The translations under genes were made by a program, and so were the position numbers. Source: Cymodocea nodosa (Eukaryota; Streptophyta; Magnoliopsida; Alismatales; Cymodoceaceae). Taken from it: 64,000 bases of DNA. The notes under the pieces are model-generated. The model did no database searches and was not told the DNA's origin. It worked only from the letters and a program-made list of their open reading frames with translations. Where the stretch lies: contig CM072343.1 of NCBI GenBank assembly GCA_036874045.1, positions 13,536,001 through 13,600,000 of the forward strand. Direction: 5' to 3'. This document shows positions 538 through 26,171 of this stretch, in pieces (position 1 is the first letter of the stretch; the number at the start of each line of letters is the position of its first letter).

Positions 538-3286
538 CTATTGTAATAAGCATGTGCAAGTACGTGTCGAATCCACAAGGAGTTTGTCTTAAATAATTTT
601 TTAAAATGATTATTTGATTAAATATCCACATTAAACTAACTCATAATTAAACTTTAATTACTTAATATTAATGTACAAAATTCGTAGCACAATTAAGGTT
701 TATAAGATTACCCCAAAATCCAATTAATTCTTAAGTTATGATAAGATATTTAAGAAATCAATGAGTATTAATCCTAAAATCACAGAATTTATGCTCAACT
801 TTTAACTCTAATAACTTCCAACTTGAACGTTTAAAAATCTCGAATAAATAATGGTTGGAAAGATCCTCGGAATATCTTTAAAATGGCAGTGATTTCATGG
901 ATTAACTCAAATTAAAACGTTGGCAATATCTTATTTAATAAAGGGGCGCAGATGGTTATGGAAACTTTCCAAAAACGCACCTTCGGTGCAAAAATCAAAT
1001 CTCCGTCAAATATTCATGAAATGCTACGAAATAAGCATGCCATGAAAGTACACAACGCAAGCACAGCATAGGCGTCGAGCTCAAAACTAGCACTCGACAA
1101 AGACTCAAAACCGTTGATCCCTTTACAAAATAAAATCTAAAATCTTTGGAAAACATTCTAAAAAATTCTAAAACTTTGTGAACTTATTCTACACTCATTA
1201 TACTTACAAAAAATGGAATTTAGAGATGTCGAACAAGTGGATACAATTTGAAGAAAAACTACTAACAATCTTGCCATCTAAGAAACGGAAAACTGCCTTC
1301 ACAATTCACATCATCACATTCATTCACACTAAACATATGATATGAACTCAATTCTTATATCAATTAACATCAAAACCATATATGATCTTTAATTTAGAAC
1401 ATTTGAAACAAAGATTTATGCATAGAATTTCGTTCTTCCACATACTCAAACTATACTCATACATATAAAATTGTAAAACATGAAAACTAGTACGAGGATC
1501 TCTCCTTTCCATCATACCTTTTAATCTTCCATGTTTCTTCTAGCAAGAACTCCCCAAAGTCCTTGAAATCGATGCTCCATAGGGCTATCACCACTTGTAA
1601 CACGTCCAAGCGAAGCTTCTAGGGTTGCTTTGAAGAAGAATGGTGCACGTCCTTAAGATCTTGCCTCCAAGACCCACAACTTTGGCTTCCACATCTAAGG
1701 ATGGTGCTTCCGATGACTCAACCCTGAAGATCCTAACCTTTTTCTCCACTCCAAATCAGTCACACGAGCCTCCCAATCCACCAAGATCAATGCCTAAAGG
1801 AGATCCTAACGTATGGCCGTCTAAATTGAAGAGAAGGTGTCTTCTAGGAAGAGTGGAAGATGCCAAGGCTCACCATTCTTGAAGGGAGCTTGTTCAAGAT
1901 CAAGGGGAAGATGGGACTTTCCGGATGGAGATGCTGGAATGGCTGGAACCGCCGACTGCAATTTGTTGGAAGAGGAGGAGATAGCCTACAATTGAGTGGT
2001 CAAACACTTTAAATACTTTAGGCTTTTGTTGCTTGAGCTCCAATAAGTTGCATCTAATGGCCCACGTTTTTTTCCTCTTTGATCCACCTTGATTTCATGG
2101 TTTATTGGCCTATAAAACTCAAAACCAAGTTGGATGCACATATACAATGAATATAAATCATATGATGCAAATATAGTTTACATGCATGCATGAGTTACCA
2201 TATATGGAAAGTTGCCAAATTAGGAAAGTTTTGGTCCACAACTTCTTCACATGTGCATACATGAATTACTTAAAGTTCTTTAGTTTAACATCATATTTAA
2301 GTGATTTGGCAATTATACAATGTATATAAAGTCATACATTGAAGAATTATAAGAATTATGTCTAATACAAGGGCTATTGACTAGGTGTTTAATTGATAAA
2401 GGATAAATTTGTACATTATCAACTATTTAATCCCTAATTCATGCATATGTCTAAAAATATGATTTTCATGTAATCCTTTATAAGAACATATATAATGATG
2501 ACTTATAATCCTTAATATGCATGAATTAATATATATAAAATGCACAAATTGACATTTTACAACAATCTTAATGAGAATGTTAGCTACTTACAGACTTAAC
2601 TATCCGATGCTCATATGCATTTCGGATAGTTACAGATAACTCACCGATATATAACTTAAGTAAATCTACCAGATCATGACACGTGTCATAAGCAGTTTTA
2701 TAATAAAAGAAACATTTCGAAGAGTTACAAGTCTAACTATCTGATGCCCAGATGCATTTCAGATAGTTAGAGATAACTCACCGAAAATCCACTTAAGTCA
2801 TTCTCTCAGAACATGACACGTGTCCACAGCAATTTTATAAATAAAAGGAGATTTCGAAGAGTTATTGGTCTAACTATCTAATGCCCAGATGCATTTTGGA
2901 TAGTTAGAGATAACTCACCGAAAGTTCACTTAAGTCATGCATTATGGTTTCAACACGTGTACTTCTGGAAATAATAAAATATTCTTTTAAAACATAACTG
3001 TTCGGCAATTTAAACATAACTGTTCGGTACATGTTTGGTATGTTAAACATAACTCTCCGAAATAACAGAAAATTCGGATACTTAAGAATTTCACAGCCTG
3101 CAATTTACCGACAGTTCAGAAATGTACTAAATTTACATTAATTCCATGAAATTAAGCAAATTCTTTAATTAAAGCTTATAATAGTGCAATTATAACATAA
3201 TGGCTTAATTCTCATATGATAAGCTAAATATTATGCAATTAACTATCATTTAACCGTTAATATTATGCACTTTTTCATTCTAAACA
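538..3286 (-). mobile_element. LTR of Gypsy element G1 (3' LTR, interrupted by a K LTR)
   Basis: The high end reads, on the minus strand, purine tract then TGTTTAGAATG, exactly as in the LTRs ending at 15131 and 20455. About 700 bases next to that end align by eye with both of those LTRs. The lower part has diverged but keeps the GCAAGTA ... TCGAATCCACA signature common in plant Athila/Tat LTRs. The segment contains three or four copies of an approximately 130 bp unit with CGGATAGTTA, ACTTAAGTCA and GACACGTGTC (about 2590-2950). The low terminus lies beyond the K LTR and is outside the window. Plus-strand reading frames here, such as one near 1640-1882, look accidental. Confidence 0.75.
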
Positions 3287-3301
3287 CTTCCCCCATACCT
3301 A
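3287..3301 (-). other. Polypurine tract of G1 at the 3' LTR
   Basis: On the minus strand the sequence AGGTATGGGGGAAG directly precedes the LTR start TGTTTAG. The same tract sits at 15132-15146 and 20456-20470. It is the expected plus-strand primer site of an LTR retrotransposon. Confidence 0.75.
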
Positions 3302-4078
3302 AATTTTGTTAGTCCCTTAGCAAACTAAGATCTAATTAATTGGTCTTTCTAAAAGTGCTAGAATTAATTCTTCCTTTTTTCTTCTGTTCAGCATAAGAAA
3401 TTGTATTATTATATAGATATTCTATATGTTTCAATAATCAACCTGCAAATATACTTAGAATATATGCAAATTACATACAAAGTATATCATCATCACATAG
3501 GTATTAATTATATTATCGTTTGTTCTTCTTTTCATCATCTGTCATCCTGAATTTTCCAATAAGATTTCTAGAAGAAATTTCAACAACATATGAATCAAAG
3601 TACAATCTAATTCAATATGATTAAGACAAGTAGAATAAAGAATTGTATCTCCATTAAACAACTTCAAAAGTTTATAAAAATTTTACAGTCTCAATTATCA
3701 GATAGTTACAACAAATTCATAAAAATTTTCAATTTCCACAAAACTTTGCAGTACAATTTTAATTCCTTTAATTAACAAACTTACGTGGCTGTTACTTTAA
3801 TTACCTCCCCCATACCTACATTTTGCATTATCCTCAATGTAAAGGATTTGATAATAAATACAGTAATTGTAGCAGGCATGAATACAGTTTCGTTGATTTA
3901 GCACCTAACTCAACGAATGAGTTTAAATCTAAATTTAGGATAAGTAATCAATTACATACCTTGTTTCGTTTGTATCTACTTCTGCATATTCTGATTTTTG
4001 ATTCTGAAAAACTTTTCATTCACAGATAAAAGCAGAATATATAACAAAATAACATTTAACAGATATTTATAAATCATT
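3302..4078 (-). other. 3' noncoding region of G1
   Basis: No gene is seen. Around 3790-3840 the minus strand has ACATTGAGGATAATGC followed by GTAGGTATGGGGGAGG, the 'TTGAGGACAATG ... GGGGG' signature that in Athila and Ogre elements follows the last coding frame. It recurs in G2 (about 17820-17860) and G3 (about 21748-21790). Near 3955 the minus strand reads ACAAGGTATGTAATTG, a good splice-donor match also kept in G3 near 21938. The 3440-3780 part is a short version of the block that is longer in G3 and in Copia family K. Confidence 0.6.
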
Positions 4079-4165
4079 GTCTTGTGTGGAACCCAAGCTC
4101 CTATGCCTTTGGTGGCTCACAAGCAAGCCAGTTGGTTTCCCAAAACAGATACCAACAAACTGGAT
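4079..4165 (-). repeat. Conserved 87-base block downstream of the F-box frame, with inverted repeats
   Basis: The block recurs nearly unchanged at about 18112-18200 and 22060-22148, always just 3' of the F-box frame. It holds CTTGTG (4081-4086) facing CACAAG (4118-4123), and CCAGTTGGT (4128-4136) facing ACCAACAAACTGG (4151-4163), so two stem-loops are possible. Changes in the G2 copy do not look compensatory, so an RNA structure is not proven. It could simply be 3' untranslated sequence of the captured gene. Confidence 0.5.
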
Positions 4166-4273
4166 TGATATTTTGTTTTTGTTTTCTTCTTTTTATAAAA
4201 TAAAATTAAAACTAATTTTTTTTCTTTTTTTTAAAAATAAATGTAGAATACACACAACATTAAACACACAAAA

Positions 4274-5428
4274 TCATAGCTTAAGAATATGATTGAAAAG
4301 TAGAAATAAATGGAATAAACGTGTTAGTCCAAGCAAACTTTTTAGGCATATTCTTCTTGCTATTAATTCTGTTTTAATGCAGTTCAAGTTCCTTCTTAAT
4401 TTGTAAACTTGTAGTATATTATCAATGCAAAATACAAGTGTATTACCATTAATGAAATGAAATGTAGAAAGGGATCCTTTTCGGTTCCAAGATAATGTAG
4501 CAGTTTCTATTTCTACATCTATTTCAATATATTCCTCTTCCCACTTCCATTCATTTATGTCTTTCATAATCCATATTTGAAATTTCATCAATTCATCCCA
4601 CCATCTTATCAAACATAAAGTAGGATCATCATATTCATTATACCACATTCCTATTTGAATTTTATCAAATTCTGCAGATGGTGGTTTAACTATATCACTC
4701 GGTATAGGTAATATTTCTATAAAATCATCATCATAACTATCTATGCCTACTATGTATAAATCAGATCTAAATGCAACTGATATATCTGAGACTAGATATA
4801 TATATCCATCAAGTATGACATGCATGCTGTTAATTAATGATTTCTATCCTAGATATATCATAGTATTTTTAGTCCAAGATCTATTCAAAAAATTATACAC
4901 CCTCAAGCATAAATCTTCATCCCAATTTCCTGTAGGTCTCTAATAATATAATTTTTCAGGAATGGTAGAATTTTTATCAGAAAATATTAAAGCCGACCCA
5001 CAATTTATAGTTGGTACTTCATATCTATTAGGTCTTCCTATATTCCATTCTTCTCTTGTGATAGGATTTTTTATCAAAATATCAGGTAATAGACTTGCAT
5101 ACCTTGGTCTAGTTCTGTATATGATTAATCCTTCATCCATCCCCATAATATGATCTATTCCTTCTAATATATTGGGTGGAATTCCAGTAGTTTCTTCCAT
5201 ATTCAGATATTCATGGGTAATTGAACTACGATTAAATGACTTCCATATGAATCCATCTTTAATCTTAGTCATTTTTGCAGCTTGTAGTCCATGAAAATAT
5301 TTTTCTCCAACACAGTCTTTAATTTCCTTTGATACACAACACAACTTGCACAGATCTTTAGCTAACAAGTTACTCAATACTTCCCTTAGTGCATCCAACG
5401 GTAATTGCATCAATTCCATTTGTTGATT
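4274..5428 (-). pseudogene. F-box protein gene carried by G1 (fossil copy)
   Basis: The frame starts at 5419 with an N-terminal F-box (about residues 5-45): LPLDALREVLSNLLAKDL, then a CCVSKEIKD stretch as in plant F-boxes that bind SKP1. The C-terminal two thirds resemble an F-box-associated interaction domain, with the phrases KFQIWIMKDINEWKWEEEY, SLSTFHFINGN and NILQVYKLR. A full protein of this type is about 370-400 residues. Such proteins are substrate receptors of SCF ubiquitin ligases; the substrate is unknown. A good splice acceptor (GTGTTATACAG) ends at 5429. The frame lies downstream of gag and upstream of the G purine tracts, where pol or env would be expected. It is broken in one or two places. 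Assignment to the F-box family is firm; which host gene it came from is not known. Confidence 0.8.
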
Positions 5429-6975
5429 CTGTATAACACAAACAAAAATTTTAGTAGAGACAAAAATTAACATAACTACTACACACCCTCGTGGAGTTAG
5501 GGCATAACTCAACGGACTAAGTTCGTTGAGTTAAGGACTAACTCTACGATACTATTAACTATAAATAAACTTATATATATATATTTACTTTAGCTATACT
5601 GCTTCATTCAACTATCCTCCTAGAAGAGGTATCAATTCCATTAACAATTCTATTGACAGGGTTAGGTATTGCTTGTATTAGCAATCCTCTAGTGGATCTA
5701 ACTTCCATTGATTCCTTCTGTCTAAGTGGTATATTTCTATTCTGATTTTGAATTGCAGCATTTCCAAATACAAAATCCAAACGATTGTTTAATTGTTGGA
5801 TTATCTTTTCTAATTTCTCTATCCTAGATCCTTGTTCAAGTAATGTTTCATAACTTATATTCTTCTCATTTATACTTTCTACTCCCTAGAAATTATTGTT
5901 TCTCCAAGATAAATTTGGGTGATTTCTCCAATTGGGATTATAAGAATTTCCAAAGTTATCTTTCTAGTTTCTAGCATAAATAATATCTAGATCATTAATG
6001 TTTGCATTCTTTTCTGCTAGCTTTTGATTTAATGATAACTCTTCTATTTTCTTTGTTAATTCAGTTAATTTCACTTCAAGCATAGTACTTGAATCTATTT
6101 CATGCATTCCTCTTGGCAATATTCTTTTATCTACAATAACTTCAACTGAGTTTTCCCACTATGCAGTTTTTTTTGCAAAGTTTTCTAAATATGCCCATAC
6201 TTCTTCACTACATAGTTTCAGAAATCCATTTTGACAAGTAGATTCTAATAAAGATTTCGTTGAAACATCTATGCCTTCATAAATTATACTTATTAATTGT
6301 GCTTTACTCATTACATAATGTGGACATTGAGTCAGTAAATCTTTAAATCTTTCAAAATATTTTTAGAATGATTCACCCTGTTTTTGACTACACATTAATA
6401 TTTCTTTTTTCTTTTTAATCATTTGATGTGTTGGATAATATTTTTCCAGAAAAACAGAGCAAAATTCAGTCCATGCAGAAATTGAATCAAGCGATAGAGT
6501 ATATAACCATCTCTTAGTTGTGTCTTTTAAAGCAAAAGGGATATATCTAAGTTTAATAGCATCTATACTCATGTTCGGCATTTTCATCATTTGACAAACT
6601 TCGTTAAATTCTCTAAGGAAATAATAGGCATCCTATCTTTCTAATCCATGAAAATGTGGCAATTGACTAATATAATTAGATTTTAGTTCAAACCTATCTC
6701 CCTCAAAGTTTGGCAATCGAATACATAAAGGTTCATCAACTAATTCAGGATACAAAATTTCTCCTAATGGTTTTTCTACTAGAGCAGCCATCTCTACGTT
6801 CTGTTTTAAAGAAAGGTTAACTGCACCCCAAAGAATTTCGTTAAAGTCCAGTTTAGAAAATGTTTCAGTACACCTCTATGTTGAATATTCCTGGTTAGGT
6901 GTTCTTACTAATCGTTTAGTGCTTAGAGAACGAGTCCATGTGCTCATAAATAAATAGTAGAAGATTAATTACATA
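5429..6975 (-). other. Candidate intron spanning gag in G1
   Basis: The minus strand reads ATTG then GTATGTAATTAATC at 6975, a strong plant-type donor, and a pyrimidine-rich tract ending TTATACAG at 5429. The same pair occurs in G3 (24966 to 23373). The gag start codon lies about 28 bases after the donor and the F-box start codon 10 bases after the acceptor. Unspliced RNA would therefore offer gag and spliced RNA the F-box frame, a layout like the spliced downstream frames of retroviruses and of Athila/Ogre elements. This is inferred from sequence only. Confidence 0.5.
5604..6947 (-). pseudogene. gag of G1 (Athila/Tat-like Gypsy, fossil)
   Basis: The start is placed at 6947 (MSTWTRSLSTKRLVRTP). 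The middle shows the plant Gypsy capsid region: PNFEG, an ELKSNYISQLPHFHGLE stretch, YFLREFNKVCQMMKMPN, then LRYIPFALKDTTKRWLY, FLEKYYPTH and QGESFWKYFERFKDLLTQCPH. These match the Retrotrans_gag family. The C-terminus is basic and polar, and I see no CCHC zinc knuckle. The frame ends at 5604 and no protease follows; the F-box frame comes next. The copy is broken in a few places. G3 carries the close relative at 23574-24922. Confidence 0.8.
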
Positions 6976-7926
6976 CCAATTTGAAGCTTTCCATTCAGTA
7001 AATATTTGTTGATGGATGAAGTAGAATCAGCTGCTTCTCCTTCCAGTTCCCCCAACTCATTCTCCTTTCTTTTAAAAGTGCTGGTAACTCGTAAATAACA
7101 TTCTGTTTTATATATATAATGCACATCCATAAAGTAAATAAATCTCGTTGCAAGAACATGTCTTGCAACGTGCATCGTGGTTCCTATTTTTATGGGTACG
7201 TGTACCACTACTAATTTCAAATTTTGGTAACCGCTAAACCGACGAAGTTTCGTTCATGGTTAAAAGAATAACTGTTCTGCTTAATCCACAAACTAACCTC
7301 ATTGAGTTACAGATAACTCAACGTAACAATGTCGGTTACTGTTGCTAACTCCACGAACTAACTTTGTTGAGTTATAGATAACTCAACGGAGTGACCTTAT
7401 ATTATATTACTGACCTCGTGGAGTTAAGTTTAACTCAACGAACATACTTTGTTGAGTTAACACTTGGCAACTTCTAAGTTTACTCCTCGTAAGTACCTCT
7501 ATGTTTTTATTTTATTATTATTATTATTATTATTTTTCCTACACTTTGCTAACTGAATTAAAGTTAACTATATGTCATTACTACAGCATTCTAATCAAAA
7601 TTCGTTTAAATCTGAACATTATATAAATATTTAACTTGCAGTTAATTTCATGTTATGCAGAATTTACATTTTTCTTCTTTGCAGCATGTAGATATTTTCA
7701 GACATCTATTATTTAATCCTGTCATTCAGCACTGTAAATCTTTTTAAACATTCATGCATAATGTTCCACGAATTATATAACATTCAGTATAGTCCATCCA
7801 TTTCACATTCAAAACACACATGAAAAGTATATCTGAAAAATATTTATTCATTCATATGAATCAATTACAGTATAACTTAATCAGATATTTTTCATACAAT
7901 TATATACAAGTAGATGAACAATACAA
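6976..7926 (-). other. Leader region upstream of gag in G1 with hairpin motifs
   Basis: No convincing protein is seen; a short open frame at 6969-7220 runs across the splice donor and looks untranslated. At 7300-7460 there are several copies of TAACTCAACG and its inverse CGTTGAGTTA, some as hairpins with a 4-base loop. At 7511-7536 there is an ATT microsatellite. The region is conserved in G3 at 24967-25898. Confidence 0.55.
7107..7121 (-). promoter_or_regulatory. Candidate internal TATA box in G1
   Basis: The minus strand reads ATTATATATATAAAAC about 130 bases upstream of the candidate splice donor. The G3 counterpart (about 25099-25108) reads TATAAATA, a textbook plant TATA box, within conserved flanks. 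It could drive a transcript that begins near 7075 and is spliced into the F-box frame. No start-site data are available, and the AT-rich background makes chance matches common. Confidence 0.35.
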
Positions 7927-9050
7927 TTAGTCTCTATTCCTAAGTTCATCTACATCCTTTTGGAGTTTTTCTAATTGTTGCTCTAATTGGTTAATTCTCT
8001 CTACAGCTCCTGTAATGTCTTCAGAAGATGTAGCAATCTTTGTAGCTACAAAATTCCTGTACTCTTTCACTGAAATGTTTCTTGATTTGATCCTTTTTTA
8101 TGCCCATTTAGTGAAATCGATACAATCCACCATTAGTAGTGGAATCAAATCTCCATAAAACAATTTCTTCTTCACTATTCTCAGCTTGGAGATAAAAATT
8201 ACAGACCAATTTATTTGAATTCTATTTACAATTGCATATGTGGCCCATTTGACAAATTAACTCAGTTCTATGTCATGTCCTTATCGTTGATAAGCATTCT
8301 TAATCAAAATGTTGGCTATCATGTGTGCTTTACCATTTAAATGCTTCAGTCTATTTAATAATGGCACACCAGTATCGATAGCCAAACTGTCCTTGATTTC
8401 CTGCTCTATCCATTCAACGGTAGTTGTACTTTCCAAAATTTCCTTTCCTTCATTTTTCAATCCAAAAATGTTGTGGAGAAGCTCTGGTATTATCTGTACA
8501 TCAACTTCCTCCACATTGGAAATTAATTTTCCTTCTTCTTCTCTTAAGTTTGCATAAAAGTAGGGCACTAGATTCTCATATACTGCATGCCCTCTTTCTT
8601 GAGAAATAAAATTCAGTAGACCTTGAAATTCAAATAATTCTTTGATTTCTTGCATTCCGTCCCAATTTATTGGTCTACTATATATAATATCATAACCCCT
8701 AATCTCTTGATATTTATTATAAGCTTCCTGACTCCAAAAATGTACTTCATTCAGAACTGTTGCTTCAGTCGGGTCAGGAATGTGACTTTGTTGTTCTAGA
8801 GGGGTTTGTTCTTGATCTTCCTCTACCATAGGCTGCACTTAAACATGTTCTGCAGATTCCTGAACATTTGCTTTTGCTTTTGTTTGTGGTGGTGAGTCGA
8901 CAGAACTCTCCACTCTGTCTTGAATTCTTTCCATAAATTGCTGAAGAGTTTCTTGCTCTTCAGTGGAATCTGCAAAGTCATTTTTGTCCAAATGGCTTTG
9001 TTCAGCTTCTTGTTCATTTTCTGTTCTTTCTTCCTCCTCCTGACTACCAA
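7927..9050 (-). pseudogene. Accessory frame of G1, 'plant putative transposon protein' type (fossil, 5' cut)
   Basis: The visible part has an acidic, Q/E-rich N-terminal stretch, then a globular region with RPINWDGMQEIKELFEFQGL, YENLVPYFYANLREEE, HNIFGLKNEGKE, IANILIKNAYQRQGH and NRIQINW. It ends in a coiled coil with a heptad-like L/V pattern and the end VDELRNRD. This resembles the family annotated in plants as 'putative plant transposon protein' (Transposase_32-like), often found beside Athila-type elements. Its role is unknown; it has been discussed as envelope-like or as a gag-related factor. It is cut at 9050 and broken inside. A related frame occurs in Copia element C at 48291-50503. 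Confidence 0.65.
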
Positions 9051-9057
9051 TCTACTC

Positions 9058-9930
9058 TATCACAAACAAAAGAGTTTGTGTGATGCATGTCAACTAGGTA
9101 AATTACATAAAATATCCTTTAAAAGTTTAAATGAAATAACAAGCAAAAGAGTATTAGAACTAGTGCATATGGATTTATTTGGACCTACTAGGATAACCAA
9201 TCTAGGAGGTAAACATTATGCTTTTGTACTAGTTGATGACTATTCTTGGTTTACTTGGGTTTACTTTCTAGCTAAAAAAATTGAAGTTTTTGAAATATTT
9301 AAAATATTCTGTAATAAAGTTTAGAATGAGCAAAATGTTAAAATTCAAAAACTTAGGAGTGATCATGGTACAAAATTTGATAATGATCAAATGGACACCT
9401 TTTGTGAAGAATTAGGCATAGATCATAAGTACTCATTTCCAAGAGCTCCTTCACAAATTGGGATAGTAGAACATAAAAATAGATCACTTTAGGAAATGTC
9501 CAGAACCATGTTAAATGAAAATAAGTTACCCCTATCTCTTTGGGCCAAAGCAGTTCATACAGCATGTTATGCTATAAATAGAGTACATCTAAGACCAATT
9601 TTGGATAAAACTCCTTATGAGATATGATATAATAGGGTTCCCAAAATAAGTTATTTAAAACCCTTTGGTTGTAAGTGTTTTATTTTAAACACTAAAGAAC
9701 GTAGAGCCAAATTAGATGAGGGTATTTTTGTTGGTTATTCCATTAGAAGTAAGGCATATAGAGTATATAACAAATCAACAAAAACCATTGAGGAAACCCT
9801 ACATGTGAAATTTCATGAAAATTCTCATTTGGATTTTAGACATGTTGAAAACTTTGATTTAGAAATTCTCCCAGAAATGGTACCAAATGATGTTAACAAA
9901 GAAATTGAGAAATTATTTGACTGAATAAAA
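9058..9930 (+). pseudogene. Copia D integrase region (fossil)
   Basis: CDACQLGKLHKISFKS is the end of the GAG-pre-integrase zinc region. It is followed by the integrase core: LELVHMDLFGPT (first catalytic Asp), FVLVDDYSWFTWVYFL, and a FPRAPSQ region. The C-terminal part reads KPFGCKCFILN, DEGIFVGYSIRSKAYRVYN. These are classic Ty1/Copia integrase signatures. The part upstream (gag and protease) is missing from the window copy. The region is broken in several places. Confidence 0.8.
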
Positions 9931-13519: not shown

Positions 13520-15131
13520 TTGTTCTTGGGTTTTGTTAACTTCTATTTTTAAACTTGTTTAATTTGTCTTTATGCTTATATCAATAATTACTTTTAAAAG
13601 TAAACTAACAACCTTTCACACAAATTAGATATTAATTCCAATTTGTATTTTAACTGCAAGTGCATAGTGTATATTGTATTTGTATGCAAGTACAGGTCCA
13701 TCCCATAGAGAATTGAGTAAGAATTGCGTATTGTTTCATTTTTTTTATATTAGACTTAATGTGTTCAGTAATCACTCCGTTGAGTTACAGTTAACACAAC
13801 AGACTAAGTTCATGGAGTTATGGCTAACTCAACGGACTAACCTCGTGGACTTAAGTTAACTCCATGAGCCTATCTTTCTAGTTAAATATTGTTAATTACA
13901 GAGGAATTCAGCCAACCATTGGGTGGTTCTACAGATTGTAAATAACATCAATTAAGCTCTTTAATGCTAGTTAAGATTAGATTTATTATTAAGCAATAAT
14001 AACATTTAGATATTTCAAACAGTAACCATTAAAATCTTTAAGTATCTGGAATGAATCAATTTCAGTAAATTGTAAAACTATTTTCTATTTTCTGAATCAA
14101 ACAAACATAAAACACTCACAATACTGACAATGATACATTAATGGTGTGGAGTTTCAGTAAACTTCCGACGCTGCCTGCAGTTAGCGTGGTCCTCCACCTC
14201 TGCTCACACTGCCCACCACACTTTCTTCATTTTTCTCCTCTTCTTTTATATTTCTTTTAGTAGTAACTATTTTTGCTTAGACGATCAGTTGGATTTCTTT
14301 CATTCATATCAACGATGGTGATTTCTTATTTCTTCCACGAGTGAATTCCTACGTGACACATGCAATCGTGGTTTTCCTTCAAATGTTCTGTTTTTGCAAC
14401 TGCTACATTGGTATATTAGTCTTCGTTTTAGTAGAACACTTATCCTTTAAGTCCTGTAAAAACTCAAACACTTATCTGTAACTTTTCGAGTTTTTGCACT
14501 TGCAAAACACGTGACTGAACATAGAAAACTTATCTATTCATTAGTCATTTTATAAAACTTGAACAATTATCTAATTAAGACTCGAACAGTTATTTATCCA
14601 TACATATAAAAACACAAACAATTATCTAACTCTTCGATTTTCAATATCGAACGCACATGGAAAACACATGACAACTTAAAAAATTAAAAACACACGTGCA
14701 GATAATTTCTAACTTAATGAGTTCAGATATTTCAGATACTTACAACCTTAACTATCTGATGCTCAGATGCATTTCAGATAGTTAACAAATAACTTACCGA
14801 GCATTCACTTAAGTCATTCATTAAGGTTACAACACATGTATTCCAGGAAATAATAAAATATTCGTTTAAAACATACTATCCGATGCCTTAAACATAACTC
14901 TCCGAAATAACATAAAATTTGGACACTTAAGAATTTCATAGCCTACAATTCACCGATAGTTCCGAAATGTACTTAATTAATGTTAATTCCCTGAATTTAT
15001 GTAGATTCCTTCATTAAAGCATATAATAGTGCAATTATAACATAATGGCTTAATTCTCATATGATAAGCTAAATATTATGCAATTAACCATCATTTAACC
15101 CTTAATATTATGCACTTTTTCATTCTAAACA
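13520..15131 (-). mobile_element. G2 LTR with primer site on one side and purine tract on the other
   Basis: The LTR is 1612 bases long, starts TGTTTAG and ends AACA on the minus strand. It aligns by eye with the LTR at 18641-20455 along most of its length, including GTGCATAGTGTA, the AACCATTGGGTGG phrase, and the CCACGAGTGAATTCCTACGTG block. A primer site abuts the low side and a purine tract the high side, so one LTR is shared by two internal regions, as happens after unequal exchange between copies. It contains ACTCAACGG hairpin words and G-box-like ACACGTG words. Confidence 0.75.
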
Positions 15132-16162
15132 CTTCTCCCATACTTAAATTTTGCTAGTCCCTTAGTAAACTAAGATCTAACTAGTTGGCCCTTCTAAAGT
15201 GCTAGAATTAATTCTTCATTTTGTTCTTCTTCAAAATAGTAAATTAGATTACTATATAGATATTTTGTATTTTTCAGCAATTAGTTTTAACTTTGTTCTG
15301 TCCTCTTCAACCTACAAATATATTTAAAACATATGTAAATTACATACAAAATATATCTGCATCACATAGATGTTAATTATATTATCATTTTTTCTTCTTT
15401 TCAGCATTTGTTATCCTGAATTTTCCAATATGATTTCCAAAATAAATTTCAACTACAAATGAATCAAAACACAATCAAATTCAATATGATTAAGACAAGT
15501 AGAATAAAGAATTGTATCTCAGATAAACAACTTCAAAAGTCTATTCTAGATTCATAGTTCAGTAATCTTAGATAACAGAAAATATACTCAATCCAAAAGA
15601 TATCTGTATTTCACAAAACACTTTTATCTTTTCAGAACAATATATGCATATTTGTACTTAATTGTATTTAATACAGATGTAATAAAACACAAATCTCGTA
15701 TAGTCCTGCTTCTAATATTTACTGAAAATATGAATCCATCTTAATAAGCTCATACTTTTTTTGTAGTTTAATAAGATCTACACATAAATCATTCTACAAG
15801 TTTAATCAATCAAATTAAATGTATCCTCGATCATATGTATTTCATTTAATCTAAAAATCAACATTTCAGCTCTTTCAGGATTTCAGATAATTTACTGAGT
15901 TTCAATTAAGCATTCTGATTTTTTTTTTTTTTAAATCGTGAAACTATTAAACTCATAAAATTCAGCAAAAACATAAGATACTATATCTAGATTTGTATGA
16001 ATAGTAAAATTTTGTATCATCTTATATAGGATTCTAAATATAACATTCAAGTAGTTACAGTTCTTAAAAAAATTACAGTCTTAATTATCGAATAGTTACA
16101 GCAAATTCATAAAAAAATTTTCAATTTCTACAAAACTTTTGCAGTACCATTCTAATTCCTTT
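15132..16162 (-). other. G2 internal 3' noncoding region, left of the solo K LTR
   Basis: The minus strand begins (at the low end) with the purine tract before LTR 13520-15131. The rest is noncoding and matches G3 20456-21720 apart from a shorter middle. Nothing coding is seen. The block ends at the solo K LTR and resumes at 17784 without loss, as judged from the G1 and G3 copies. Confidence 0.65.
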
Positions 16163-17211
16163 TGTTGAGTATTTTGTTTTGATGATGTGTGCTGAATGAA
16201 AATAATCATATTTGCTCAATTACTATTGCTTGTGAAAAAAAATTAAAATCATTAGTTAATACAGAAAAAGCTTACTGATATAAATATTTGTCTGTATTGG
16301 ATCTGAAGTTAATAACTAGTCATTTCATTGCATTAATTTCTCATTTAACTAAACGTTAAGTTAACGTGTGTTTTTATTGAAAAGCATGATATGTTTTAAA
16401 GTTATATCTTCTGTATCATGAATAGTGCACGTTTAGACAACTCGTTAAGTTAGTGTTATACACGTGGTGAAATTATAAGTTACGAATGTTGTATTGTATC
16501 ACGTGAGGTGCACATGTTTAACTCGTTAAGTTAGCATATCTAAATGCGTTGAGTTGCTATATTGAACACTAAGGCAACACGTTAGGTTAGCGTTATAAAC
16601 TTAAGTTGTTATTTTTGCGCGTGGTAAAATTCTTATTATAAAAATATTTGTTTATTACTGAATCAGTGAGTTAAAGTTTTTCGGAGACTTACAGTAGTAA
16701 CTATCCGAAAGGTAACTTAAGTCATGTTTTCAGGTCTTGACACGTGTCTCACTAGTTTTATGGTAAAAAGAGTTTTCCAGAGACTTACAACCGTAACTAT
16801 CCGAAACTTAAACTATTTTCGGTGAGTTATCGTTTAACCTTTTGAAAGAAAGGTTAAGTAGGTTCATTGAGTTAGCGTAACACCATAGACTTAGTTCATT
16901 GAGTTAGCTATAGTACTTGTCATGTGAAATGGCACATGAGGATCTCGTTAAGTTATATATATATACTTGTGTTATTCGTTTAGTTAATATTAAAGTAACG
17001 ACTTCTTATTACGCTTGATGAAAGATTTTGGACGAGAAAGTTTATTTTGCAGAAAATTTTTCAGAGATCTAGGACTGATGATTAAAGAAAATTTGAAATG
17101 TAAACGTGGGTCAGAACGTGTGTATTTCAATGAAGGAAAAAGAAAAGACGTGAAGAAGTGGAAAACTGGTAGTGGTTAAACGTGAAGGATATGCATGAAA
17201 TGAAGATACAG

Positions 17212-17220
17212 TATAAAAGG
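17212..17220 (+). promoter_or_regulatory. TATA box of the family K LTR
   Basis: TATAAAAGG lies about 1050 bases into the LTR. The same box appears reversed at 30414-30422 (A), 46609-46617 (C, 3' LTR, one base changed) and 58198-58206 (C, 5' LTR). Its conservation and position mark the U3/R border, with transcription expected to begin about 30 bases downstream. Confidence 0.7.
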
Positions 17221-17245
17221 CATAGAGTTCTGATTGATCAAATTA

Positions 17246-17324
17246 ATCCTTGCACACAAAAAGAAAAATCTTTTCAAGGATCAAACAATCCCTGCACACC
17301 AAAAGAAAAATCTTTTTCAAGGAT
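17246..17324 (+). repeat. Tandem stem-loop unit just downstream of the K LTR start site
   Basis: Two similar units follow one another. In each, ATCCTTG or ATCCCTG is followed by CACACCAAAAGAAAAATCTT-like sequence and then CAAGGAT. The arms (17246-17252 with 17275-17281, and 17288-17294 with 17318-17324) can pair. All K LTRs in the window keep both units. In the RNA this would form two hairpins close to the 5' end. Confidence 0.7.
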
Positions 17325-17783
17325 CAAAAAAGCCTCTTCGGGAAAATCTCTCAAGTGGAAGAAAATTCAGTAAAGCATAAAAAGGTATTATTTATGTCAC
17401 TAAAGATTTAAAGTATCAGAAGAAAGCAAATTCAGTGAAGCAGAGAAAGACAAGATATTCGTCACTGAAGAATTGCTGAAGAAGAAAAAGAAGAAGAAGA
17501 AAGATCTCAAACAGGGAGAAATGTTTTAAATTTCGTAAATTAGTTTTCTCTATTTGTAGTTATGAAATTATTTAGATGATACATGGTATCAAGATATAAT
17601 TGCGTCTACAATTTCTGAGGAAAATTGAATTGTATATTGTAATTGAAACCTTGAATAAAAATGATTTTATGAAAATAATGTCTCGAATTGTTTTTGAGTT
17701 TTAAAGTTTCAATTATATTTCATAAAATATTAAAAATACACAATTCACCCCCCTCTTATGTAGCCATATGATCCTACACCTTT

Positions 17784-18299
17784 AATTAACAAAATTACAT
17801 GATTGTTACTTTAATTACCTCCCCCCATACCTACATTTTGCATTGTCCTCAATGTAAAGATTTTACAGTAAATATAGTAATTGTTGCAGGCATGAATATT
17901 GTTTCGTTGACTCAATGAACTTAATTTGTTGAGTTAATGAATAACTCAATGAATTGAGTTTAAATGTGAATTCAAGATAAGTAATTAATTACATATCGTG
18001 TTCTTTTGTATCTCCTTCAATATCTTCAGATTTTTTATTTTGAAAAACTTTTCATTCACACATAAAAGCAGAATATATAACAAAATAACAAAACATAAAT
18101 TGTTAATTCAGTGTCTTGTGTGGAATCTAGGCTCCTATGCCTTTGGTGGCTCACAAAAAGCTAGTTGGTTTCCCAAAATAGATACCAACAAACTGGATTG
18201 ATATATATATATATATATATATTATAAAATAAAACTACAACTAAAAAAATTATTATTATTATTAGTTTTTCTAAAAATAAATGCAAACTATACATAACA
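17784..18299 (-). other. G2 internal 3' noncoding region, right of the solo K LTR
   Basis: It holds the GTAGGTATGGGGGGAGG purine signature (about 17820-17840), ACATTGAGGACAATGC, ACTCAACG hairpin words, the conserved 87-base block (18112-18200) and a TA microsatellite (18202-18222). It corresponds to 21745-22240 of G3. No coding frame is seen. Confidence 0.6.
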
Positions 18300-18640
18300 T
18301 TAAAAATACAAAATCACAGTTTAAGAACATGATTGAAAAGTAGTAACAAATGGAATAAACGTGTCAGTTCATGCAAACTTTTTAGGCATAATTCTTCTTA
18401 CTATTAATTCTATTTTAATGTAATCTGCTTTCCATTTTAGCTTGTAAACTTGCAGTATGTTATCAATACTAAATATAAGTTTATTTCCATTAATGAAATG
18501 AAATGCAGAAAGGGATCCTCTTCTGTTCCACGATAATGTAGCTATTTTTATTTCTACATCTATTTCAATATATTCCTCTTCCCACTTCCATTCATTTAGG
18601 TCTTTTATAATCCATATTTGAAATTTCCTCAATTCATCCC
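18300..18640 (-). pseudogene. F-box gene of G2, C-terminal part only (fossil)
   Basis: The frame keeps the end of the F-box-associated region: KFQIWIIKDLNEWKWEEEY, SLSAFHFINGN, NILQVYKLKW. It is closely similar to G1 and G3. It stops where the G3 LTR begins at 18641, so the rest of the gene in this copy was displaced by the G3 insertion. The expected target duplicate is ATCCC (18636-18640), and its partner should lie beyond the window with the far end of G3. Confidence 0.75.
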
Positions 18641-20455
18641 TGTTTGGCTTGTAACTTAGTTAATTTATCTTTTTGCTTATCAGTAATTTCTTTTAGAAGT
18701 CAACAAACAATCATTCACACAAATTAGATATTAAGTCCAATTTGTATTTTAACTGCAAATGCACAGTGTACATTATATTTGTTTGCAAGTACAAGTCGAT
18801 CACATAGAGAATTGAGGTAGAACTCTGTACTGCTTCATTTTTAATAATGAAATTTATATATTCAGTAAGCACTCCGTTGAGTTATAGCTAACTCAACGGA
18901 CTAACCTCGTGGAATTGAAGTAACTCAACGAAGCTATCTATCCAATTTAATACTACTATTCACAAAGGAATTCGGCCAACCATTGGGTAGCTCCACAGAT
19001 TGTAAATAACATCAATTAAGCTCTATAATGCTAGTTAATATTAGATTTATCATTCAACAACACGAACATTCAAATATTTCAAACAGTAGCCATTAAAATC
19101 TTTAAGTATCAAGAACGATTCAATTTAGTAAATTGTAAAACTATTTTCTAATTTCTAAATTAAACAAACATGAAACATTCAAAACATTGACAATGATAAC
19201 CATAATCACGATACACAACAAACAATACAACACTCCATTACTAACTATAAACATAGATAAGTTGTTTTTGGTATTTTGGTTTTGATATGATCATGAAAAT
19301 GGGCGAAAGGTGAAATGTAAAAGTAATCTCTATCAACAGTAAAAACTTTTGTCACTACATGCGACACGATTACACCACTGAAAACTTAATCACTTACAAT
19401 TCTGCCTCCTCTCCCTATAGAATCGCGAATCCAGAATTGCAAGATGATCTCCTCTTCAGCATACTAGCATCAACTCGAAACCAAGGCTAGAAGCTTTACG
19501 TTCTCCTGAGATATGAGTCAGTGCTTAGTGAAAATGGCTTCCCTTCCTGCGACGCAATCACTCCTCACAGTGGTTGTCAGGCATTGTGTTTGGCTTGGAA
19601 TCGACCCGACATCAAGAAAGTATCCTTACAGACCTTCGATGGTTGGTGATTATGGTGTGATGGTTGTGGTTGTGGTAGTTGGTGTGGTACTTCAGGGAAC
19701 TTCTGACGCTGCCTGCAGATAGCTTGGTTTGTCCTCCTCCGCACACACTAGCCATGCCTTCTTTGTCTTTTCTCCTTTTATTTTATATTTCTTTAGTGGT
19801 AACTGCTTCTACTTAGATTATCGGTTGGATTTCCTTCATTCATATCAACGATGGTGATTTCTTCTCCCTTCCACGAGTGAATTCCTACGTGATATGTGCA
19901 ATCGTGGTTTTCCTTTGAATATCCTGTCTCTATAACTGCTATAGTGGCATATCAGAAAATAAATGGTCCATGGAGTTACAGATAACTCAACAGACTTACT
20001 TCCTTGATTTAACTATAAAACACGTACAATAAAGAAATAAGCTGCTAACCTAATGCGTTACCTTAGTGTGTATTCATGTAACTCAACGCGTACAGTTATG
20101 CTAACTTAACGAGTTCAGATATATAACTTAAGGTTTTTACTTGCTAACTCAATGAGTTGTTACTGTTCACCTAAATATTCTTTTAGCGTTTAAAACATAA
20201 CTGTCCGGTACATGCAATATAACTCTCCAAACTAACAGAAAATTCGGATACTAAGGAATTAAAAACCAGCAGCATACCGACAGTTCGGAAATGTATTAAA
20301 TTAACACTAATTTCCTAGAATTATGCAGATTCTTTCATTGAAGCATATAACAGTGCAATAATAACATAATGGCTTAATTTTCATATGATAAGCTAAAAAT
20401 TATGGAATTAACCATCATATTATCGTTAATATTATGCACCTTTTCATTCTAAACA
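18641..20455 (-). mobile_element. 3' LTR of Gypsy element G3
   Basis: The LTR is 1815 bases, begins TGTTTAGAATG after a purine tract at 20456-20470 and ends CCAAACA at 18641 on the minus strand. No primer site follows, so it is a 3' LTR. It contains a perfect 11-bp hairpin CCGTTGAGTTA / TAACTCAACGG (18871-18896). A more GC-rich part lies at 19380-19740; open frames there on the plus strand look accidental. Confidence 0.8.
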
Positions 20456-22239
20456 CTTCCCCCATACTTAAATTTTGCTAGTCCCTTAGCAAACTAAGAT
20501 CTAACTAATTGATCTTTCTAAAGTGCTAGATTTAATTATTCATTTCGCTCTTCTTCAGAATAATAAATTAGAATACTATATAGATATTCTATATGCTTCA
20601 GTAATCTGTTTTAACTTTGTTGTCTCCTCTTCAACCTATAAATTACATACAAAATATATAAGCATCACATAGGTGTTAATTATATTATCATTTTTTTCTT
20701 TTCAGCATCTGTCATCCTAAATTTTCCAATATGATTTCCAGAATAAATTTCAAGTACATATGAATCAAAACACAATCCACTTCAATATGATTAAGACAAG
20801 TAGAATAAAGAATTGTATCTCAAATAAACAACTTCAAAAGTCTAATCTAGATTCATACTTCAGTAATTTTAGATAACAGAAAATATACTCGATTCAAAAG
20901 ATATCTGTATTTCACAAAACACTTGTATCTTTTCAAAACAGTATATGCATATTTGTACTTTTAAAAGTTAATTTGACAAGCTTGAATCATACAAAAGCTT
21001 TCTAGTGTACCCATGTATCGAGCTTTCAGTCAACAATCCCAGATCTGATTAGGATCTTAGGTTGCTAGATTTAAAGAGTCCTTTTTCAGGTCAACAATCC
21101 TTACATATCTATCTGCTCAAGTACAAAAGGCTCGTGATCAAACAAGTCAATAAACTCTCAAAATTTTTCTCTTTTTTTCCTCTTTTCTTTTCTTTTCAAC
21201 ATAGTATATGAACGTATTTCATTAATACAGATGCAATAAAACACAAATCTCGTATATTCCTGCTCTTATTATTTACTGAAAATATGAATCCATATCAATA
21301 AGCTCATACTTTTTCTATAATTTAATAAGATCTACACATAAATCATTCTACAAGTTTAATCAATCAAATTAAATGTATCATTGATCATATGTATTTCCTT
21401 TAATCCAAAAATCAACATTTCAGCTCTTTCAGGATTTCAGATAATTTATTGAGTTTCAGTTAAACATTCTGATTTCTTTTTAAAATCGTGAAATTGTTAA
21501 ACTCATAAATTTCAACAAAAACATAAGATACTATATCTAGATTTGTATGAGTAGTAAAATTAGTAGCATCTTATATAAGGTTATAAATATAACATTTCAG
21601 CAGTTACAGTTTAAAAAAAAGATAACTTTTTTTTTTTTTGCAGTTTCAATTATCGGATAGTTATAGCAACTTCAACTTCCATAGAACTTTTGCAGTACTA
21701 TTTTAATTCTTCTAACTAACAAAATTACATAGCTGTTACTTTAATTATCTCTCCCCCATACCTACATTTTGCATTGTCCTCAATGTAAATGATTTTTCAG
21801 TAAATACAGTAATTGCAGCAGGCATGACTATTATTTCGTTAACTTAACACCTAACTCAACGAACTTAATTTGTTGAGTTAATGAATAACTCCACGAATTG
21901 AGTTTAAATGTAAATTTAGGATAAGTAATTAATTACATACCTTGTTTCATTTGTATCTCCTTCTGTATATTTCGATTTTTGATTCTGAAAAACTTTTCAT
22001 TCATAGATAAAAGCAGAATATATAACAAAATAACATTTAACAAATATTGATAAATCAGTGTCTTGTGTGGAACCCAGGCTCCTATGCCTTTGGCGGCTCA
22101 CAAGCAAGCCAGTTGGTTTCCTATAACAGATACCAACAAACTGGATTGATATTTTTGTTATTTTTTTTTTCTAAAAATAAATGCAGACTACACATAACAT
22201 TAAAAACACAGAATCATACTTTAAAAATATGACTAAAAA
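20456..22239 (-). other. 3' noncoding region of G3, including a block shared with Copia family K
   Basis: From about 20880 to 21600 the sequence matches Copia A (32200-32900) and Copia C (51240-51960) in the same strand, for example AGCTTGAATCATACAAAAGC, CAACAATCCCAGATCTGA, CTCAAGTACAAAAGGCTC and CAGATGCAATAAAACACAAA. From 21745 to 21790 lies the TTGAGGACAATG plus GGGGGAG signature. The conserved 87-base block lies at 22060-22148. No coding frame is supported. Confidence 0.75.
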
Positions 22240-23372
22240 GTAGTAACAAATGGAATAAACGTGTCAGTCCAAGAAAACTTTTTTGGCATAATTCTTCTTG
22301 CTATCAATTTTGTTTCAATGCAGTCTATTTTCTTTTTTAATTTGTAAACTTGCAGTATGTTATCAATACTAAATATAAGTGTATTTCCATTAATGAAATG
22401 AAATGAAATGCAGAAAGAGATCCTCTTATGTTCTAATATAGTGTAGCTGTTTCTATTTCTACATCTATTTCAATATATTCCTCTTCCCACTTCCATTCAG
22501 TTAGGTCTTTTATAATCCATATTTGAAATTTCTTCAATTCATCCCACCATCTTATTAGACATAAAGTAGGATTATCATATTCATTATACCACATTCCCAA
22601 TTGAATTTTATCATATTCTGCAGATGGTGGTTTAGCTATATCACTTGGTATAGGCAATATTTCTATAAAATCATCATAACTGTCTATGCTTACTATGTAT
22701 AAATCAGATCTAAATGCAATTGATATATCTATGACTAGATATATATATCCATCAAGTATGACATGTATGTTGTTAACTAATGATTTCTTTCTTAGATATA
22801 TCATATTGTTTTTAGTCCAAGATCTATTCAGAAAATTATACACACTTAAGCATAAATCTTCATCCCAATTTCCAACAGGTCTTCAATAATATAATTTTTT
22901 AGGAATGGTCGAATTTTTATCAGAAAATATTAAAGCTGACCCACAATTTTCAGTTGGTACTTCATATCTATTGGGCCTTCCTATATTCTATTCTTCTCTT
23001 GTGAGAGGATTTCTAATTAAAATATCAGGTAACAGAATTGCATACCTTGGTTTAGTTCTGTATATAATTAATCCTTCATCCATCCTATAATATGATCTAT
23101 TCCTTCTAATGTATTGGGTGGAATTCCAACAATTTCTTCCATATTCAGATATTCATAGCTAATTGAACTATAATTAAATGACTTCCATAAAAATCCATCT
23201 CTAATCTTAGTCATTTCTACAGCTTGTAGTCCATGAAAATATTTTTCTCTAACAGAGTCTTTAATATCCTTTGATATACAATACAATCTACACAGATCTT
23301 TAGCTAACAAGTTACTTAGTACTTCCCTTAGTGCATCCTGCGGTAATTTCATCAATTCCATCTGTTGTGATT
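22240..23372 (-). pseudogene. F-box protein gene carried by G3 (fossil copy)
   Basis: The start codon is at 23361. The F-box reads LPQDALREVLSNLLAKDL followed by CISKDIKD. The middle keeps EYLNMEEIVGIPPN and PRYAILLPDIL; the C-terminal part keeps ILPIPSDIAKPPSAEYDKIQ, MWYNEYDNPTLCLIRWWDEL and KFQIWIIKDLTEWKWEEEY. It is collinear with G1. A matching splice acceptor ends at 23373. It is broken at a few points. F-box proteins recruit substrates to SCF ubiquitin ligases; what this one would have recognised is unknown. Confidence 0.8.
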
Positions 23373-24966
23373 CTATATGACATAAACAAAAATTAACAGA
23401 GACAAAATTAACATAGCTACTACACATCCTCGTGGAGTTAGGTCATAACTCAACTAATTAAGCTCGTTGAGTTAAGTAATAACTCTACGATACTATTAAC
23501 TATAAGTAAACTTACATTTTATTTATTTTTTTATATTAACTATATTATACATAGTTACTTCAGTTATACTACTTCATTCGGTTACCCTCCTAGAGGAGGT
23601 ATCAATTTCATTAACAGTTCTGTTAATAGGGTTAGGTACTACTTGCATTGACAATCCTCTAGTAGGTCTAACTTCTATTGATTCTTTCTGTCTAAGGGGT
23701 ATATTTCTATTTATATTTTGATTTTGAATTGCAGCATTTCCAAATACAAAATCTAGACAATTGTTTAATTATTTAATTATCTTTTCTAACTTCTCTATTC
23801 TAGATCCTTGTTCAATTAATGCTTCATAATTTATATTCTTGTCATTTATATTTTCTCCTACTTGGAAATTGTTGTTTCTCCAAGATAAATTCGGGTGATT
23901 TCTCCAATTAGGGTTATACAAATTTCCAAAGTTATTTTTTTGGTTTCTAGCATAAATAATATCTTAGTCATTAACGTTTGCACTTTTTTCTACTAGTTTC
24001 TGATTTAATGATAACTCTTCTTTTTTTTTTGTTAATTCAGTTAATTTAACTTCAAGCATAGTGCTTAAATCTATTTCATGCATTCCCCTTGGCAATATTC
24101 TTTTATCTGCAATAACTTCAGCTGAGTTCTCCCATTGTGCAGTTCTTTCTACAAAGCTTTCTAAGTATGCCCATGCTTCTTCAGTACACAATTTTAAAAA
24201 TCCATTATGACAAGTAGATTCTAATAAAGATTTCGTTGAAACATCTATGCCATCATAAATTATACCTATCAATTGTGCTTTACTCATTGCATGATGTGGA
24301 CATTAAGTCAGTAAATCTTTAAATCTTTCAAAATATTTCCAAAATGATTCTCCCTATTTTTGGCTACACATTAATATTTCCTTTTTCTTTTTAATCATTT
24401 GATGTGTTGGATAATATTTTTCCAAAAAAACAGAGCAAAATTCAGTCCATGTAGAAATTGAATCGGGCGACAAAGTATATAACCATCTCTTAGTTGTGTC
24501 TTTTAAAGCAAAAAGGATATATCTAAGTTTAATAGCATCTATACTCATGTTCGGCATTTTCATCATTTGACAAACTTTGTTAAATTCTCTAAGGAAATAA
24601 TAGGCATCCTCTCTTTCTAATCCATGAAAATGTGGCAATTGACTAATATAATTAGATTTCAATTCAAACCTATCTCCCTCAAAGTTTGGCAATCGAATAC
24701 ATTAAGGTTCATCAACTAATTCAGGATACAGAATTTTCCCTAATAGTTTCTCTACTAGAGCAGCCATATCTTCATTCTCTTTTAAAGAAAGATTAGCTAC
24801 ACCCCTAAGGATTTCGTTAAAGTCCAATTCAGAAAATTTTCAGTACGTCTTTGTGTTGAATAATCTTGTGTAGGTGTTCTTACTAATCGTTTAGTGCTAG
24901 GAGAACGAATCCATGTGCTCATAAACTCTTAACATAAAATAAGATAGCAGAAGATTAATTACATAC
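23373..24966 (-). other. Candidate intron spanning gag in G3
   Basis: The donor reads GACTG then GTATGTAATTAATC at 24966 and the acceptor ends CATATAG at 23373. Both sites and their spacing (about 1.59 kb) match G1 (about 1.55 kb). The gag frame is inside and the F-box start codon is 12 bases after the acceptor. Confidence 0.5.
23574..24922 (-). pseudogene. gag of G3 (Athila/Tat-like Gypsy, fossil)
   Basis: The capsid region reads PNFEGDRFELKSNYISQLPH, FHGLEREDAYYFLREFNKV, LRYILFALKDTTKRWLY, TWTEFCSVFLEKYYPTH and MSKAQLIGIIYDGID, with a coiled-coil-like TELTKKKEELSLNQ later on. It is collinear with G1 gag and of similar length (about 450 codons). There is no visible zinc knuckle. No pol follows it; the next frame is the F-box gene. 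A few breaks are present. Confidence 0.8.
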
Positions 24967-25898
24967 CAGTCTGAAGCTTTATATTCAGTAAATAATTGTT
25001 GACGGATGAAGTTGAATAAGCTGCTTCTCCTTCCAATTCCCCAATGAATTTTCTTTTCTCTCACAAGTGCTGGTAACTAGTAAATAACATTCTGTTCTAT
25101 ATTTATAATGCACGTCCATAAAGCAAATGAATCTTGTTGCAAGAACGTGATTTGTAACGTGGAGTATGGTTCCTATTTTTATGGTACGTGTGCCACTTCT
25201 AATTTGAAATTTCAGTAACCGCTAGACCCACGAAGTTTCGTTCGTTGCTAAAAGAATAACCGTTTAGCTTAATCCATGAACTAACCTCGTTGAGTTAGAG
25301 ATAACTCAACGGAATAGCTTCGGTTACTGTTGCAAACTCCACGGACTAACCTCGTCGAGTTACAGATAACTCAACGGAGTGACCTTATATTATATTATTG
25401 ACCTCGTAGAGTTAAGGTTAACTCAACAGACTTACTTCATTGAGTTAACACTTAACAGATTTTCTAAACTTACTCCTCATATATACTTTTTTGCTCTCTT
25501 GCATTTTTCCTACTTAAATAAAGTTAAATACATGTCATTAATGCAACATTCTAATTAAAGCTCATTTAAATCTGAACATTATATAAATTTTTAACTTGCA
25601 GTTCATTTCATGTTATGCAGAATTTAAATTTTTCATTGCAGCATGTAGATATTTTCAGGCATTAATTAGTTGCTGTGCCTTTAATCTTGTCATTTAGCAA
25701 ATTTGCATATCTTTTAAACAATCTTGCATTTTGTTCAAACCATTATATAATATTCAATATAGTTCATCCATTTCATCATTCTCAAACACGAATGAAAAAT
25801 ACATTTGAAAAACATACATTCATTAATATGAATAGTATACATTACAATAACTCAGATATTTTTCATACAAATGTACACAAGTAGACGAACAATACAAT
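24967..25898 (-). other. Leader region upstream of gag in G3
   Basis: It matches G1 6976-7926. It holds a TATAAATA box on the minus strand (about 25099-25108). Hairpin words occur at 25280-25440, including CGTTGAGTTA, a 4-base loop, TAACTCAACG at about 25288-25311. No gene is seen. Confidence 0.55.
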
Positions 25899-26166
25899 TT
25901 AATCTCTTCTCCTAAGTTCATCTACTTCCTTCTGGAGTCTTTCTACTTGTTGCTCTAATAGGTTAATTCTTTCTACAACTCCTGTAACTCCTCCAGAAGG
26001 TTCAGCAATTTCTGCAGCAGCATAGTTTCGGTACTCTTTCACTAAAATGATTCTTGATCTTATCCTTTTGGATGCCCATTTCGTGAAATCAATACTATCC
26101 ACCATCAGTAGTGGAATCAAATCTCCATAAAATAATTTATTCTTTACTACTTTCAGCTTGGAGATA
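25899..26166 (-). pseudogene. C-terminal end of the G3 accessory frame (fossil)
   Basis: The segment encodes VDSIDFTKWASKRIRSR and then a coiled coil ending VERLQKEVDELRRRD. It is the continuation of the frame at 39525-41449, interrupted by Copia B: the sequence left of B (TTGGAGATAAATAC) and right of B (TTTGTACCAATTAATTTG) correspond to adjacent sequence in G1 around 8185-8215. See the entry at 39525 for the family. Confidence 0.65.
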
Positions 26167-26171
26167 AATAC

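Follow-up and report, generated by a model that had tools for sequence, protein, structure and literature searches.

A high-copy Ty3/Gypsy family of Cymodocea nodosa carries an F-box gene that is probably constrained and may be expressed by splicing

The Ty3/Gypsy family described here, which we call G, carries an F-box sequence inside its LTR-to-LTR units, which are bordered by target duplications (one perfect, one matching in four of five bases). The F-box sequence is present thousands of times in the genome of Cymodocea nodosa. As a whole explanation we consider it likely that G is a Gypsy family with a constrained, splice-expressed F-box gene, whose product would act as an SCF receptor against restraint by the host.

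In the window, that is the whole analysed stretch of 64,000 nucleotides (positions 13,536,001 to 13,600,000 of contig CM072343.1), F-box sequence was found at three sites, all on the minus strand and each upstream of a polypurine tract and an LTR of family G. An earlier note, made from the letters alone, had placed F-box copies at 4274-5428, 18300-18640 and 22240-23372. Matches to the F-box domain (PF00646) at 4940-5530 (E 1.8e-8) and 23068-23442 (E 1.2e-5), both on the minus strand, confirm the first and the last of these sites, whereas the middle one holds only the 3' part of the gene with its UTR, at 17780-18640 on the minus strand and directly behind an LTR. We refer to these as G copies 1, 2 and 3, the last being the truncated one. 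The F-box exon of copy 1 extends from about 4278, a lower limit inferred from the frame of the open genomic copy L007, to 5428 (4274-5428 in the note), and that of copy 2 from 22240, the lower limit of the note, to 23372; both are on the minus strand. At 5428 and 23372, the upper limits given in the note, the exon starts immediately behind the splice acceptor. The start codon lies at 5419 in copy 1 (ATG, reading MELMQ on the minus strand) and at 23361 in copy 2. All three window copies are damaged. Relative to a 380-codon frame, two stops and one frameshift were counted in copy 1 and four stops and two frameshift indels in copy 2, and copy 3 is a fragment.

The claim that the F-box copies lie on the element's own strand and ahead of its purine tract held at all three sites. 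A polypurine-LTR junction, at which GTATGGGGGAAG meets TGTTTAGAATG, is located downstream of each, at 3287/3286, 20456/20455 and 15132/15131, the last with one G-to-A change. On the minus strand, the polypurine tract of copy 1 (3287-3299) is followed by the start of a truncated 3' LTR (2585-3286), and the LTR of genome copy 6 (see below) matches 3286-2585. The tract of copy 2 (20456-20468) leads into a 3' LTR at 18641-20455, likewise on the minus strand, which is common to copy 2 and the truncated copy 3. The tract and 3' LTR of copy 3 itself occupy 15132-15144 and 13532-15131 of the same strand. The stretch 13532-20455 is an arrangement of LTR, truncated F-box and LTR, in which one LTR is shared with the neighboring G copy. 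Repeat units with an offset of 137 bases were seen near the Gypsy LTR start, at 2597-2938.

The identity of the gene was further borne out by L007. Its product of 379 amino acids matches PF00646 with 40.2 bits (E 2.6e-10) against a curated cut-off of 20.5, and FBA_1 (PF07734) is recognisable in it but below the cut-off (19.2 versus 21.1 bits, E 0.0012). A search of a plant-containing protein database, in which only candidates sharing exact words were scored, revealed no relative at E<=0.001 among 369 candidates or at E<=10 among 5107. The PDB sequence search with the F-box protein gave one meaningless match (E 0.96). The failure to recover a database relative would therefore reflect an old capture, a poorly sampled host lineage, or a miss by the word-based search.

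We searched the genome (374.6 Mb; the window lies on its contig C15, and its retroelements and F-box are of plant type) with a 32-base F-box word. It occurs 3631 times with up to three mismatches, while the reversed control gave 0 matches. The copy count that the earlier note had called for is thus available from the F-box side, taken from word matches, as thousands of F-box copies. Among the 100 word-match places listed, 50 are on contig C1 (28.9 Mb), all of them mid-contig between 5.3 and 21.2 Mb, and this clustering suggests a pericentromeric concentration. A DNA search was performed with window positions 4274-5530 as query; of 4785 first-look candidates, the 40 best were scored. Besides the window, these comprise 39 sequences at 93-95%, near full length in all but one. 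Six more places from the word-match list contain F-box sequence, five of them near full length; in the sixth, L045, 973 of 1400 bases were aligned.

For the ten best copies outside the window, flanks of about 10 kb were taken on each side. Gypsy pol and env-like sequence is collinear upstream of the F-box in seven of the ten (genome copies 1, 2, 4, 5, 6, 7 and 9), with some internal deletions; genome copy 1 is without the integrase and has lost some of its env-like region as well. Homology ends about 3.6 kb upstream in genome copies 0 and 8, which have a larger block in common, and a copia element interrupts genome copy 3. Genome copy 6 is a complete unit with LTRs of about 2.0 kb (the 3' LTR with an insertion), the primer binding site (PBS) TGGCGCCGTTGACGGGGA, the polypurine tract GGGGGAAG and a perfect target duplication, CATAT/CATAT. 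Genome copy 1 also has an LTR pair, and its target duplication, GTCAC/GTCCC, agrees in four of five bases. The LTRs diverge by 0.087 in genome copy 1 and by 0.066-0.072 in two parts of genome copy 6, mostly through transitions, and these insertions are therefore not recent.

Seen alone, the window could be read differently, since 3681-8196 and 21636-26168 resemble an 85% duplicated block: a host F-box cluster would have grown by local tandem duplication, and retrotransposons would have inserted afterwards. The genome-wide matches rule this out. With 3631 dispersed sites, and with LTR, polypurine tract and order of genes recurring unchanged at places unrelated to one another, we regard a tandem origin as exceedingly improbable. 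The proposal that the gene moves with a Gypsy family is instead supported by the word matches, the collinear pol in seven of ten copies, the LTRs, PBS, polypurine tract and target duplication, and the probable constraint described below.

The order of G from 5' to 3' is LTR, PBS, a short frame beginning CEFCNSE, protease, RT, RNase H, integrase and an env-like region, then leader exon, gag capsid, F-box, UTR, polypurine tract and LTR. The gag capsid (PF03732, E 3.3e-19) is located directly 5' of the F-box in all ten genome copies and in both window copies. It is absent from the usual place upstream of pol, where the PBS is followed by the CEFCNSE frame and then the protease (genome copies 1 and 6, two 5' ends only). 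A capsid 3' of the env-like region and inside an F-box intron is an unusual order for a Gypsy element. We infer that G is chimeric, a pol-bearing element having been joined to a leader-capsid-F-box module. What had been taken for the gag frame of G, at 8281-8838, turned out to be an env-like ORF instead. It belongs to a region at 8147-9063 (minus strand) that is collinear with the element copies and has a weak PF20167 match below the cut-off; the capsid is found at 5601-6963 and 23572-24925.

In G copy 2 all parts are again on the minus strand. Leader exon and spacer occupy 24967-26166, as far as a nested copia insertion. The env-like region lies at 39520-41806, collinear with the sequence between pol and F-box in the genome copies, and pol, with protease, RT, RNase H and integrase, at 41926-46051, its 5' side cut by a copia element that we call X. 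The Pfam matches of this pol are PF13650 (just below cut-off), PF00078, PF17919/PF17917, PF17921 and PF00665. Pol and F-box of copy 2 appear 18 kb apart because a second copia element, Y, inserted between them (26172-39519, minus strand). Copia Y has LTRs at about 26172-26547 and 39147-39519 that are 96% alike, contains copia X nested within it, and is bordered by AATAC at 26167-26171 and 39520-39524 as target duplication. Y without X is present in genome copy 2.

As a member of Ty3/Gypsy, G has LTRs, a PBS, a polypurine tract and a 5-bp target duplication (genome copy 6, and genome copy 1 with four of five bases), and its pol follows the order protease-RT-RNase H-integrase, read from the order of Pfam matches on the window with the protease just below cut-off. 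The 120 listed protein matches of the integrase are 46-66% identical, and those named are plant proteins. The PBS TGGCGCCGTTGACGGGGA has one mismatch to what we take to be the canonical tRNA-Asp primer-site letters. From this tRNA-Asp-type primer site and the general layout, G appears to be a Ty3/Gypsy family with Athila-like features; the Athila ORF-1 domain had no match among the ORFs scanned. According to PMC1142308, Diaspora and Calypso have a tRNA-Asp primer site, and in these elements and Athila it stands a few bases behind the LTR, as in G. The paper also describes what looks like a retrogene between pol and LTR in the related Tpb1-1. In Diaspora itself Gag precedes protease and RT (PMC1142308, figure legend), whereas the capsid of G stands behind the env-like region.

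Between leader exon and F-box exon lies a GT-AG interval with the features of an intron. It measures 1548 bases in G copy 1 (5429-6976) and 1594 bases in G copy 2 (23373-24966), both on the minus strand, and contains the gag capsid region, as recognized by homology. The intron of copy 1 has the donor GTATGT and the acceptor ATACAG/AATC. The GT is kept in all ten genome copies and the AG in eight of them, copies 2 and 9 having a changed AG. The two window copies retain both, and a T-rich tract precedes the acceptor.

In one genomic copy this interval, together with the capsid ORF, is precisely missing. The copy was read in two stretches of sequence taken upstream of L045, the most divergent copy, namely L048 (701 bases) and L049 (800 bases). 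The element's leader exon is collinear with L049 and with the beginning of L048. L048 then passes from GCTTCAGACTG straight to AATCGACAAATGGAATTAATG, where a further F-box fragment begins, so that the F-box ATG is found 9 bases behind the junction with the leader exon. At these points, unspliced copies read ACTG/GTATGT at the donor and TTATACAG/AATC, or nearly so, at the acceptor. In all fetched sequence, which includes many places twice, the spliced junction was found once, against 29 donor and 31 acceptor unspliced matches. The precise loss of a GT-AG interval with the capsid implies a spliced F-box RNA, and the simplest reading is that the L048 form would have arisen by reverse transcription of such an RNA. 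One might argue that a single copy, whose locus is rearranged and has also received a copia LTR, lost the interval through chance deletion or predates the insertion of the capsid, and that there is no spliced F-box messenger. However, the boundaries fall exactly at GT and AG, the donor reads GTATG and the acceptor is preceded by a T-rich tract, these sites are kept across genome and window copies as counted above, and the 800 bases further upstream show collinearity with the element. We therefore hold this objection to be quite improbable and favor reverse transcription of a spliced RNA.

Constraint on the F-box frame was analyzed with 28 aligned copies (20 loci from the DNA search, window copy 2, an extra copy in L032 and the six word-list places). 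The third window fragment was left out, and a 22-row run that included it gave the same trend. Only in L007 is the whole 380-codon frame open; the other copies have up to seven stops. The ratio of amino acid-altering to silent changes (N/S) is 235/76 for singletons and 96/74 for variants in at least three of the 28 copies (p=2.2e-5), the value for private changes being near the neutral expectation of 2.8-3.9. Transversions were also counted separately to avoid methylation-driven C-to-T change and gave 116/20 for singletons versus 26/19 for variants shared by at least three copies (p=2.6e-4). Counted on a tree, N/S is 544/266 (2.05) on terminal and 117/103 (1.14) on internal branches (p=1.8e-4), and for transversions 158/32 (4.94) versus 39/30 (1.30; p=2.6e-5). 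Stops account for 71 of the 881 changes on terminal branches and for 7 of the 227 on internal ones. Neither wrong forward frame exhibited a drop in the site-frequency test, and both rose slightly on the tree (+1, p=0.05; +2, p=0.09); a weak drop (p=0.014) was seen in one reverse frame, which has third positions in common. The integrase of the family behaves like the F-box (114/44 versus 14/21, p=6e-4; tree p=0.009; six copies).

Inherited changes thus alter fewer amino acids than private ones, and the F-box was therefore probably constrained during the spread of the family. The most probable course, judged from these counts, is constraint in the lineages that propagated and decay in individual insertions. 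The test of constraint suggested in the earlier note hence came out in favor of a carried gene. We grade this constraint as probable, rather than proven, because of three observations. In a 12-copy F-box subset the tree test is weak (p=0.64 for all changes, p=0.07 for transversions), next to p=0.005 in the site-frequency test. The capsid ORF revealed no constraint in its own frame in the site-frequency test (p=0.25). One wrong capsid frame was significant in that test (p=5e-6), and the test can therefore produce artefacts. If the F-box were a neutral passenger, picked up a single time, copied along and never used, this would explain why 27 of the 28 copies have a stop or frameshift and why some stops are common to several copies (eight stop variants occur in at least three copies), and a retrotransposon could spread without an F-box. 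Yet inherited changes in the true frame have a lower N/S and fewer stops than private ones, and splice sites stand directly before the F-box ATG. We consider a neutral passenger improbable, and constraint at the level of the element is a reason to expect a role in its spread.

We propose that between the env-like region and the 3' LTR G carries a module of two genes, in which a gag capsid ORF precedes a sense F-box gene. The full transcript would serve replication and capsid synthesis, while splicing of the capsid interval would yield an F-box messenger, much as env is expressed in retroviruses. The product would dock on SKP1 as substrate receptor of an SCF complex and, as viral F-box proteins do, might direct a host factor that restrains the element, in silencing or capsid restriction, to degradation. 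In our view, the likeliest role is to bind SKP1 and destroy a host factor by which the element is held in check. The protein might instead be used by the element in another way, for example to regulate its own capsid or polymerase. The F-box gene adjoins the capsid gene, and a target is not readable from the sequence; nothing speaks directly against such a use, though the match to the F-box domain suggests that the protein at least binds SKP1. We judge a use outside defense rather unlikely and retain the anti-restraint role. More speculatively, and with slightly less confidence than doubt, G could possess a retrovirus-style accessory F-box gene, expressed from spliced RNA and selected at the level of the element, which redirected host ubiquitin and accompanied the rise to thousands of copies.

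Polerovirus P0 and crinivirus p22 are F-box or F-box-like receptors of a parasitic element that suppress silencing, with AGO1 as the target of P0; G is likened to them by analogy only. Among LTR retrotransposons, a flax Ty1-copia element has an F-box domain gene between its LTRs and thereby resembles G (PMC5142383). The same paper presents this single copia element as gene capture (transduplication), and we liken it to G by description only. G differs in belonging to Gypsy, in having its F-box in thousands of copies, and in the probable constraint and the spliced form of that gene. In Thlaspi an LTR-associated gene belongs to the F-box family (PMC8764390). PMC7602945 was considered as a precedent and rejected, as its subject is different.

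Additional ORFs of plant LTR retrotransposons, such as aORF-3S and the env-like ORFs of Athila and Bagy-2, are covered in a review (PMC7264820). As described there, aORF-3S is similar to the G F-box as a family-wide sense ORF between pol and the 3' LTR, with splicing reported for Bagy2. The product of G is, in contrast, an F-box protein, and the main text of PMC7264820 contains the words "F-box" and "ubiquitin" 0 times. According to the same review, transduced genes in plant LTR elements are present in one or few copies and conserved extra ORFs are mostly of unknown origin. Maize Bs1 and other transduced host genes share with G a host-type gene in the sense direction of the element, but G has thousands of copies and the protein database search yielded no host parent for its gene. 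"F-box" has 0 mentions in the main texts of PMC6317226, PMC13317346 and PMC3726574, which deal with captured genes or element classification. No high-copy plant Gypsy family with an F-box was found in the open-access literature, as judged from listings. New here is a high-copy Gypsy family with a spliced, probably constrained F-box, compared with the single flax copia case found in that literature. It is an open question whether elements use the host-type genes that plant LTR retrotransposons carry. G is a high-copy family in which a ubiquitin-ligase receptor, recognisable as such, is fixed, with probable constraint and a readable route of expression. This makes possible a direct test of whether the element employs an F-box protein against its host, as some RNA viruses do.

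The copia element X of the window has extra sense ORFs of its own (207 and 153 amino acids) between pol and LTR, at 49128-50548, without a Pfam match. The region behind its pol is mostly 70-79% alike to the Gypsy region from F-box to polypurine tract. This shared 3' sequence occupies 50963-51859 and 32195-32840 in copia X and 14863-16158 and 20187-21709 in the Gypsy copies, although the two families are unrelated.
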